DNA of 64,000 nucleotides from Rhodococcus rhodochrous. GTDB taxonomy: Bacteria > Actinomycetota > Actinomycetes > Mycobacteriales > Mycobacteriaceae. The notes beneath the pieces are model-generated. The model was not told the DNA's origin. It searched no databases and saw only the letters and a program-made list of their open reading frames with translations. Of the stretch, positions 28,597-46,864 are shown one piece after another. The position numbers and the translations under genes are program-made. The stretch is from NCBI RefSeq assembly GCF_014854695.1, contig NZ_CP027557.1:744001-808000 (forward strand). Reading direction: 5' to 3'. The stretch's first letter is position 1, and every line of letters starts with the position of its first letter.

Positions 28597-31500
28597 GTGC
28601 CCCTTGCCGGCCCGGACGCCTCACGGCTCGCTCTGTCGCGCGCACAGTCGGGCGTATGGTTCGCCCAGCAACTGAACCCCGACAACCCGCTGTTCAACAC
28701 CTCGGAATGTATCGAACTGCGAGGCGCGGTCGACGAGGAAGCGCTGGTCACTGCGGTTTCCGCAGCGGCATCCGAGGCCGAGGTGCTGGTCGCGGGATTC
28801 GAGACTCTCGCCGACGGTACGGTCGTTCAGATTCCCGGTGCGCGCACGCTCGATCTCGCCCCCACCGTCGACCTCACTCTCGCGTCGGACCCCTGGCAGG
28901 CGGCCCACGAGTGGATGGTGCGCGACCTCGAACGGCCCGTCGACCTGTCGGTGGATCCGTGCGTCCGGGCCGCGGTCCTGCGACTCGCCGACGATCACGT
29001 CCTGCTCTACTTGCGTGCTCACCACATCGTCCTCGACGCCTTCGGGTTCTCGCTGTTCAACCGGCGCATCGCCGAGCGTTACACCGCCGCGGTCGCCGGT
29101 GCGGAAGTTGCTGCCGCACGGTTCGATCCGGTCGAATCGGTGATACGGGAGGAATCGGACTATCGCGACTCGGCCGACTTCGACGCCGACCGTGACTTCT
29201 GGAGCGCGTACCTCGACGGCGTGGACGAAGCGGTCGCTCTCCGGCCCGGACCGGGTGGCATCGCACGACGCTCCCGTGGTGCACGCTTCACCCTCGACGC
29301 CGACCGGCAACGCGGGCTGGTGGCCCTCGGCAAGGAGGTCGGCGCGAGCTGGGGCGACGCGGTCACCGCGCTCGTCGCCGCCTACCTGCGCGGAGCGACC
29401 GGCCGTGAGGACCTCACACTCGGTTTCCCCGTCATGAACCGGCTCGGCAGCGCCGCACTGCGGGTGCCGATCACCGCGGTCAATGTCGTTCCGCTGCGCC
29501 TGAATCCGACCGCCTCGGCCACGCTCGTCGATCTCGTAGCTCAGGTTCGCGACGGAGTGGCGCTGTGCCGCAGCCACTATCGTTACCGCACCGAGGACAT
29601 CCAGCGCGACCTGCGACTACCCACCGGATCCCGCGGCGTCATCGGCCCGTCGGTCAACGTCAAGCCGTTCGGCGACTCGCTCCGGTTCGGCGACATGCGT
29701 GCGGCCGTGCACTCGGTGGCCCGAGGACCCCTGCAGGACTTCATGGTCACCGTGCGGCCGCTCGACGGCAGTGCCGGACTCGAGGTGTTCGTCGACGTCG
29801 ACGCCGACGTCTACAGCGAGGCGGATCTGACGATCCACACCGAGCGACTGGAGATGCTGTTCGGCTCGGTGGCAGAGCGGGGTCTGCACACCCCGCTCGC
29901 GCAGGTGTCCGTCCTGACCGCCGACGAGCGACGGACGATCCTCGACGACTGGAGCCACAGCCCGGACATCCCGTTCGACCCCGACCTGACCCTCGTCGAC
30001 CTGCTGCGAGAGAGGATCGAGGCGGCCCCCGACGCACCGGCCGCGGCGGACACCCATGTGACGCTCACCTACGCACAGTTCGGCGCCCGGGTGCACCGCC
30101 TGGCCCGCCACCTCGCCTCGAGCTTCGATCTCGACCGGCCGCACGCGCGGGTCGCGCTCGCGCTGCCCCGCACCGTCGACGCGCTGATCGCCATCCACGC
30201 CGTCCTCGAGACCGGCGCCGCCTACGTCCCGCTCGACGTCGACCAGCCCCTCGAACGCCTCGCCCACATCCTCGGCTCCACCGACCCCGTCTGCGTCCTC
30301 ACCACCCGCACGACCGACGGCCGGGTCGCCGAGGTGACGGGGGCGCCGCAGCGTGTCGTGCTCGAGGATCTCGACCTCGACACCGTGTCCGATGCTCCGC
30401 TCGACGACGCGGAACGCGGTCCGCTGACACCCGACTCGATCGCCTACGTGATCCACACGTCCGGCTCCACCGGCAGACCGAAGGGCGTCGTCGTACCCCA
30501 CCGCGGGCTGGTCAACCTGTTCCACAGCCACCGCGCCCAGGTGTTCACCCGCGCCGCCCGCGAGGCCGGCCGCGAATCCGTCCGCCTCGGACTGGCCTGG
30601 TCGCTCGCGTTCGACGCGTCGTGGCAGCCGCTGCTGTGGATGCTCGCCGGGCACACCGTCGACATCGTCGACGAGGCGACCCAGCGCGACCCGGCGGCAC
30701 TCGCACGCCGCGCCCTCGACGAGGGATGGGATTTCGTCGAGTTCTCACCGAGCCAGCTCGAGCAGTTCGTCGACGACGGCCTGTTCCCCGACGGCACCGT
30801 GCCCACCCTCGGTTTCGGCGGCGACGCCGTCTCCGAGCGGTTGTGGAGCCGCCTGCGCGAACGCCGGGGTGCGGCCTTCAACTTCTACGGCCCCACCGAG
30901 TGCAGCGTCGACGTCCTCGTCGCGGAGGTCGCCGACGCCGAGACACCGGTCGTCGGCCGCCCCGTCGCGAACCTGCGCGTCCACGTCCTCGACGCGGGAC
31001 TCGCCCCCGTGCCGGCCGGAACCGAGGGCGAGCTGTACGTGGCCGGACCGGGCGTGGTCCGGGGATATCTCGACGCACCCGCCCTCACCGCCACGAGGTT
31101 CGTCGCGAATCCGTACTCGGCGGACGCCTCCGGTCCGTACGCCCGCCTGTACCGCACCGGCGATCTCGTGCAGTGGACCGAGGACGGCCGCCTCGTCTAC
31201 CGCGGCCGGGTCGACAACCAGGTCAAGGTCCGAGGATTCCGTATCGAGCTCGGTGAGGTCGACACCGCTCTGCTGCGCATCCCCGGCGTCTCCCGCGCCG
31301 CGACCGTGGTGCGCACCGATCCCTCCGGAACCGCGCAGCTCGTCGGTTATCTCGTCGGACAGGACGTGCCCGAACCGGTCGAGGCCCGCCGTCTCGTCGC
31401 CGAGTTCCTGCCCGGGTACATGGTTCCCGCGGCGCTCGTCGTTCTCGACGAGATGCCGTTGACCTCCAACGGCAAGCTCGACCGCAAGGCGCTGCCCGAA

Positions 31501-46600: not shown

Positions 46601-46864
46601 CTCGGCGAGGCGTCCGGCAGCCCGTGGTCGGGTGCACCGGGTGCGGCTGCGATCGGCGGTTCGGTGGATCCGGACATGCCGCTCGACCACGTCCTGCAGG
46701 TGGACGCGATCACCGAGGACACCCCGGACGGCGCGGTTCTGGAATGCGAGTTCGCCGCCGCAGCGGACGTGGTCGACGCGGACACGCTCGCCGAGATCGC
46801 GCGGATCTGGCAGGACACGGTGCAGGTCGTCGTCGCGAGAGAACTCACCGGCACCGCTTACTAG
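37625..46864 (+). CDS. bimodular NRPS, C-A-PCP-E-C-A-PCP-E, ending in epimerase (siderophore)
   Basis: A 3079-residue peptide synthetase. C3 ([24 protein letters not shown] at 156) and C4 ([27 protein letters not shown] at 1703) look like DCL types, which fits the E domains just upstream of each. A3: TSGSTG at 632, FDSAVA at 683, my code reading D-S-A-D-T-G-C-V-D. PCP3 Ser1021; E3 HHLVVDG at 1208. A4: TSGSTG at 2181, FDASW at 2232, code D-A-Q-E-G-G-L-V-D, nearly the A1 code. PCP4 Ser2576. The final E4 has NHLVVDG at 2760, with Asn for the first His. The protein stops after E4 (ELTGTAY) with no thioesterase, reductase or terminal C domain. ATG 37625 has a weak ribosome site (GAAAGCGA). The carrier protein gene follows 40 bp later. 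Confidence 0.95.

Follow-up and report, generated by a model that had tools for sequence, protein, structure and literature searches.

How does a nonribosomal peptide synthetase (NRPS) line release its product if it ends in an epimerisation (E) domain and nothing follows that could act as a release domain? The question is raised by a siderophore locus of Rhodococcus rhodochrous, which lies within a stretch of 64,000 nucleotides (positions 744,001 to 808,000 of contig NZ_CP027557.1; hereafter "the window") and contains two NRPS genes, NRPS-1 (28597..36390, forward strand) and NRPS-2 (37625..46864, forward strand), with four modules between them. Our analysis suggests that the line makes a mixed catecholate-hydroxamate tetrapeptide siderophore, probably freed by attack of its terminal N-hydroxyornithine on its own thioester. 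The gene and domain content, its conservation, the lack of a thioesterase (TE) in cis, an adenylation (A) code shared with other lines and the presence of an N-hydroxylase are all read directly from the DNA.

Pfam detected three condensation-fold domains (two condensation (C) domains and one E), two A domains and two carrier (T) domains in NRPS-1, and four condensation-fold, two A and two T domains in NRPS-2. Together with the motifs and domain boundaries, these bear out the orders C-A-T-C-A-T-E and C-A-T-E-C-A-T-E given in the initial annotation. NRPS-1, whose open reading frame (ORF) spans 28516-36390 and whose likely start at 28597 is preceded by GGAAAGAGGA, comprises C1 (28627-29877), A1 (29986-31506, code DAQEGGFVDK), T1 (31528-31749), C2 (31822-33111), A2 (33238-34680, DSEDVGMVDK), T2 (34702-34920) and E1 (34975-36291), followed by a docking-like tail. 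NRPS-2 comprises C3 (37649-38944), A3 (39038-40555, DSADTGCVDK), T3 (40577-40798), E2 (40850-42190), C4 (42299-43585), A4 (43685-45220, DAQEGGLVDK), T4 (45242-45460) and E3 (45518-46843), after which 7 residues precede the stop. The nearest solved relatives of the C domains are ObiF1, other starter-type C domains and EntF for C1, structure 5u89 (presumably DhbF) for C2, and microcystin synthetase B, PvdL and tyrocidine synthase 2 for C4; C3 is 52% identical to C4. These relationships fit the types proposed earlier (DhbF-like first, LCL-like second, DCL-like third and fourth), for C3 by way of its identity to C4. No thioesterase or reductase domain was found by Pfam in either protein at E-values up to 0.01, and the last domain bears E motifs, so that neither NRPS ends in a thioesterase, a reductase or a terminal C domain, as had been stated. 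The possibility that NRPS-2 terminates in an unrecognised TE or in a cyclising C domain is ruled out by the lack of any such Pfam match and by the normal E motifs. The best solved relatives of E3 are bacitracin synthase 3, tyrocidine synthetase A and gramicidin S synthase 1. Two details can be added: in the HH motif of E3 an Asn replaces the first His, which the initial annotation did not mention, and T4 has the LGGDSI form of T2 and T3, which likewise stand ahead of E domains; T1 has LGGHSL.

The line end is conserved in the genus. The A4-T4-E3 unit is present in 12 of the 18 genomes returned (own included; E <= 1e-200); of the six that lack it, one is only 75% complete. The frame stops soon after the E domain in all 12 genomes with the unit (6-17 residues past the E model in 11 of them, 48 residues past it in the other), which rules out a sequencing artefact or a truncated gene, and genes for an aryl carrier protein and an EntS-like exporter lie downstream of the terminal E in each of them. 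The notion that E3 is a dead domain is unsupported, since all 12 retain the catalytic His and EGHGR, although six have Asn and one has Asp in place of the first His of the HH motif. A similar tail of 32-34 residues follows E1 in the five relatives read and is missing after E3, so NRPS-2 looks like the true terminus of the line. Among the best 80 matches, R. coprophilus, Prescottella defluvii and R. ruber show 67-72% identity over the unit and Millisia brevis has a variant with a glycine-coded module; these named relatives may overlap with the 12 genus genomes. Two plasmid stretches of the window's genome match plasmids of R. ruber, R. pyridinivorans, R. aetherivorans and R. rhodochrous, in line with its place in Rhodococcus. 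Seven further genomes (G002, G007, G012, G013, G015, G016 and G017) have EntC, EntA, EntE, NRPS-1 and the binding protein at their expected positions, and three of the stretches read from them cover the whole of NRPS-2. Domain labels in relatives were assigned with models of the window's own domains (the TE model being from this genome), so that LCL and DCL labels are relative. The A codes are steady wherever they were read (A1 DA[QG]EGGFVD, A2 DS[ED]D[VA]G[MI]VD, A3 DSADTGCVD, A4 DAQEGGLVD), that of A4 being the same in seven related clusters (L017, L018, L019, L020 with L025 on the same contig, L258, L260 and L263). Two NRPS-2 orthologues, L260 (G016) and L263 (G017), carry one extra module with the code DSAD[VT]GFVD, which suggests a pentapeptide variant of the siderophore.

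The code of the last A domain points to hydroxyornithine. DAQEGGLVDK is one residue off DAWEGGLVDK, the published hydroxyornithine code of the scabichelin cluster; the portion of that paper accessible to us also predicts a C/A/T/E end for a related Phytohabitans line (nrps-3) and names albachelin as a relative (PMC7692728). Cyclic N-hydroxyornithine is present in albachelin, according to the accessible part of PMC6151521. We searched for A4-like cores irrespective of what comes after them; a search with the whole A4 domain and a strict limit gave too few matches to count. Matches were obtained in 23 of 397 genomes of the order (own included), all 25 rows from other genomes being covered by 24 stretches, and in 19 of 394 genomes of the class (own included), where 17 new stretches were read, 15 of them with the code. 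The order search yielded 21 loci with DAQEGG[LF]VD, none of which has a TE in cis: 11 end in A-T-E, nine in A-T and one (L199) in further E/C-like domains. Among the 15 loci of the class search, eight end in E, two in T and five in TE. Altogether, the 36 loci outside the window's genome have 19 E ends, 11 bare T ends (spread over 8 genera), five TE ends and one odd end, and 31 of them lack a cis TE. These counts take as E ends L243 (followed by another NRPS gene), L244 (with a split A domain) and L251 (with an E of only 288 residues), include L196, an orthologue of the window's cluster in another genus, and exclude L216-L218 (code DADEAGFVD, with a TE end) as well as L252 and L254 (DMENLGLIN). 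The 11 bare T ends argue that a C-terminal domain is not required, and that E is not essential for release. The TE-less rule holds strongly within the order and breaks down in a single family beyond it; the broader proposition that such lines never carry a TE, true for 21 of 21 loci in the order search, is false in the class search (5 of 15 with TE) and was rejected. The missing release domain, which had appeared unusual, is less surprising now that TE-less lines with this terminal code, often E-ended, are seen to recur in several actinobacterial genera, and given the C/A/T/E end predicted in the accessible text of PMC7692728.

A few line ends seen in the same surveys deserve separate mention. 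Past the DAQEGGLVD-T end of L199, the frame continues into several E/C-like domains of unclear order. Three loci (L212, L213 and L248) have a separate A-T gene after the DAQEGGLVD-ended line, followed in L213 and L248 by a stand-alone TE-like gene. Long NRPS lines of Tomitella, Lolliginicoccus, Williamsia and R. rhodnii (L041, L050, L086 and L089) have a glutamine-like code (DAWQFGL..) in the last module and end in E, the frame containing no TE beyond that point; they form a second kind of E-ended line, which hydroxyornithine does not explain.

The window's own genome provides a control. PF00975 matches 17 times genome-wide, seven times at the C-ends of other NRPS frames and once in a frame of 1653 aa; the remaining nine matches are partial, in frames of 285-423 aa. 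NRPS frames of 6997, 9860 and 2521 aa have no TE of their own; a TE-ended frame of 1996 aa comes directly after them on the same strand and presumably forms one line with them. The two remaining lines without a TE are the window's cluster and a second siderophore-type NRPS cluster on the same chromosome (cluster 2, C1:1334923-1357902, about 1.333-1.359 Mb), and all six hydroxyornithine-like A cores of the genome (E <= 1e-10) are found in these two, four of them being A1-A4. Cluster 2 includes genes for an isochorismatase, a siderophore-interacting protein and a binding protein, as well as iron-box-like sites. It begins with its own starter-type C domain, has the codes Gly-like, (split), Ser-like, DMENLGLIN, Ser-like and DAQEGGLVD, and ends in DAQEGGLVDK, T, a short serine/threonine-rich tail and the stop, with no TE. 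Truncated C/E-like pieces without A and T domains are present around the junction of its two proteins.

The genome encodes one strong ornithine/lysine N-hydroxylase (PF13434, 352.7 bits; the other 21 matches are partial, at 45 bits or less), and the enzyme is single in all 18 genus genomes (E <= 1e-60). Its gene, which the initial annotation did not include, has a 4-base overlap with an MbtH gene; the pair sits beyond the window, ~37 kb upstream of NRPS-1. Ornithine is a likely but not proved substrate, as the nearest solved relative is the lysine enzyme MbtG, followed by KtzI and an L-ornithine 5-monooxygenase. The genome gave no match to the PF13523 acyltransferase family at E <= 0.001, hence the hydroxylamine may stay free to attack.

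For regulation, substrates, stereochemistry, release chemistry and product we infer the following from the sequence. The siderophore is probably made under iron starvation. EntC and EntA, with an isochorismatase encoded elsewhere, would provide 2,3-dihydroxybenzoate (DHB), which EntE would load onto a stand-alone aryl carrier and C1 would join to a first ornithine-type residue. Two further residues, epimerised to the D form, would then come from modules 2 and 3; no published codes resembling those of A2 or A3 were found in the literature searched, and basic residues are our guess for both. Module 4 would load N-hydroxyornithine (possibly N-hydroxylysine) made by the one strong N-hydroxylase, and E3 would epimerise this last residue. 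The chain DHB-aa1-(D)aa2-(D)aa3-(D)aa4, proposed earlier, thus stands as a prediction. Finally, the side-chain hydroxylamino nitrogen would attack its own thioester to give a C-terminal cyclic hydroxamate, so that no thioesterase would be needed. Out of the three options left by the initial annotation (an unlinked enzyme, side-chain attack, or some unusual route), the A4 code, the survey of 36 loci and the genome control favour side-chain attack by hydroxyornithine, which the initial annotation had listed with no grounds for preferring it.

The rest of the locus agrees by similarity with a DHB-primed line: a DHB pathway, an aryl carrier and a starter-type C domain of the EntF/DhbF kind are all present. 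Divergently from NRPS-1, on the reverse strand, lie genes for isochorismate synthase (EntC/DhbC, 27276..28418; TIGR00543 246.2 bits, cut-off 224.75), 2,3-dihydro-2,3-dihydroxybenzoate dehydrogenase (EntA/DhbA, 26497..27438, ORF as listed; TIGR04316 307 bits, cut-off 300) and 2,3-dihydroxybenzoate-AMP ligase (EntE/DhbE, 24807..26651, ORF as listed, within which the true start may lie; TIGR02275 763 bits, cut-off 723.55). No isochorismatase gene occurs in the locus; five candidates are found elsewhere in the genome, one of them adjoining cluster 2. An exporter-type ABC transporter (membrane and ATPase parts; 22895..24856, forward strand) is recognised by PF00664 and PF00005, all 25 NCBIfam matches listed for it being below cut-off, and a match to it adjoins EntE in L259, L261, L262 and L264-L267. 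On the forward strand, a binding protein of the iron-siderophore type (36485..37513, PF01497) is encoded between the NRPS genes, in relatives too. Forty bases past NRPS-2 begins a gene for a 73-aa stand-alone aryl carrier protein (46905..47126, forward strand), which was overlooked earlier, follows NRPS-2 in relatives and is the likely DHB carrier; among solved structures the protein is closest to the carrier part of EntB, the isochorismatase of enterobactin synthesis (2fq1, E 3.2e-9). An EntS-like siderophore exporter of the MFS type comes next (47131..48387, forward strand; NF007792 515.3 bits, cut-off 324). The earlier statement that the locus has no stand-alone thioesterase holds, and no hydrolase gene lies inside the cluster; the two nearest, both outside, encode a cutinase-like protein (18063-18839) and a prolyl oligopeptidase (51343-53490), the latter adjoining purC beyond the cluster. 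Farther away in the window (15473-17376), an encapsulin shell gene stands beside a gene for a DyP-type peroxidase, a known cargo-shell pair.

Iron-box-like sites were sought with an IdeR/DmdR-type consensus, against a background of 20 mononucleotide shuffles of the window, which gave 2 matches with 5 mismatches and none better. One site (TACGGTAAGCCTAACCTTT, 28491..28509, 5 mismatches) lies between EntC and NRPS-1, and another (TTCGGTTAGCCTAACCAAT, 36419..36437, 3 mismatches) ahead of the binding-protein gene, where L017, L018 and L019 also have sites with 3 mismatches each. The N-hydroxylase gene has a site 60 bases before it, with 5 mismatches.

Several observations weigh against release by side-chain attack as we propose it. 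The N-hydroxylase gene is unlinked to the cluster, its product has a lysine enzyme, MbtG, as its nearest solved relative, and the gene occurs in all 18 genus genomes, the cluster in 12 of them. The genome has three genes of the PF00551 formyltransferase fold, and the Millisia stretches L020/L025 yielded no iron-box-like site. Nor do the 36 loci count as independent events, since one genus (g38) contributes 10 of the 21 found in the order search. Five of the 36 (L239, L247, L249, L250 and L253) carry a cis TE; all five are from one family (f31), of whose seven loci a sixth ends in T with a TE gene downstream. Two bare-T loci (L213 and L248) have a TE gene within the stretch. The cis TEs, together with these nearby TE genes, mean that a line end of this kind does not exclude release by a TE. 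Lastly, coelichelin resembles the window's line in the hydroxyornithine of its last module, which for our line is a prediction, and in having an NRPS (CchH) without an integrated TE; its release reportedly depends on a separate thioesterase, CchJ, and its E domains, unlike ours, are only in modules 1 and 2 (PMC9854754, in its accessible part).

The coelichelin precedent (PMC9854754, again from its accessible part) also lends weight to the alternative that survives best, although we consider it unlikely: that a trans-acting thioesterase or esterase encoded elsewhere, like CchJ, frees a linear acid or a macrocycle. Candidates can be named, namely the nine partial PF00975 matches and an alpha/beta hydrolase gene (L109, about 9315-10115, PF12697) that shares the strand of the N-hydroxylase gene and lies upstream of it. 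However, the iron-box-like site separates this hydrolase gene from the hydroxylase gene, the nearest hydrolase genes in the window are the two outside the cluster, and nine of the 11 bare-T loci have no match to the TE model in the stretch, though the scan of relatives used only models of the TE and of genes in the window, which other hydrolases would escape.

Somewhat less likely still is that the terminal E itself catalyses or orients ring closure and so acts, whether or not it also epimerises, as a release domain with an epimerase fold. Its retention at the line end in all 12 genus orthologues and in 19 of the 36 wider loci would agree with this, as would six terminal E domains that lack EGHGR and are kept nevertheless (L214, L240-L243 and Millisia L020). 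Mycobactin synthetase MbtF is described as having an E-like end before a cyclic hydroxylysine, on which our literature search returned nothing; for E-ended or TE-less release in general it returned nothing or little. Against a cyclase role, cluster 2 and 11 of the 36 loci that share the code stop at T and lack a terminal E, E3 keeps its epimerase residues, and T4 has the same LGGDSI form as T2 and T3. Transfer of the chain from NRPS-2 to another NRPS, such as that of cluster 2, is very improbable, because E3 lacks the tail found after E1 and cluster 2 has its own starter-type C and its own DAQEGGLVDK end module, even if its isochorismatase (one of the five candidates) and iron-box-like sites indicate that the two clusters may share precursors, as reported for rhodochelin in the accessible part of PMC7502451.

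The window's line appears to start like EntF/DhbF and to end like the scabichelin/albachelin kind. With the former it shares the EntC-EntA-EntE and aryl carrier supply, the starter-type C domain and the EntS-like exporter. EntF and DhbF end in a thioesterase; the window's line differs in having four modules, three epimerases and no TE. The comparison with these lines, used as a yardstick in the initial annotation, is fair for the start of the line and not for its end. The resemblance to scabichelin/albachelin-type lines lies in a last module with DA[W/Q]EGGLVDK, a predicted ...C/A/T/E end without TE and a siderophore product (PMC7692728, as far as its accessible text goes); the window's line has both the hydroxyornithine-type last A code and an end without cis TE or docking tail. 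The Phytohabitans line, as described in the same text, lacks a catechol starter, and its predicted building blocks are acylated or methylated (hydroxy)ornithines; ours has a starter (DHB), differs in its internal A codes, contains three E domains and has its hydroxylase gene unlinked.

Rhodobactin contains two catecholates and one hydroxamate. The product type predicted here is also that of heterobactin and rhodobactin, rhodococcal siderophores of the mixed catecholate-hydroxamate type (PMC7502451, accessible part). The heterobactin cluster is reported, among the strains covered in the accessible part of PMC5550956, only from R. erythropolis, R. enclensis and AD45, and no cluster had been identified for rhodobactin of R. 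rhodochrous OFS as of a 2020 review (PMC7502451, in its accessible part). We saw no rhodobactin cluster in the accessible literature searched either, which is no proof that none is in print; a possible link through a 2021 Rhodococcus NRPS paper was dropped; the accessible text of a citing paper ties that work to corynecins. The window's cluster is a fair candidate for the rhodobactin cluster, and no more: it could supply DHB and a hydroxylated residue, and the second DHB would have to sit on a side chain. A bolder version, which we regard as doubtful though possible, is that this is the unassigned rhodobactin pathway of the R. rhodochrous group, making a tetrapeptide headed by bis-DHB-ornithine with a self-closing D-N-hydroxyornithine end, the terminal E setting the configuration and perhaps positioning closure, so that a C-terminal E after this code would serve genome mining as a release signature.

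If release by side-chain attack is correct, a last A code of the form DA[W/Q]EGG[L/F]VD would predict a cyclic hydroxamate end in actinobacterial siderophore lines even where no thioesterase is present, and "no release domain" flags would become structure predictions. For Rhodococcus, it would provide a candidate cluster for rhodobactin, with an end unit found in 12 of the 18 genus genomes.

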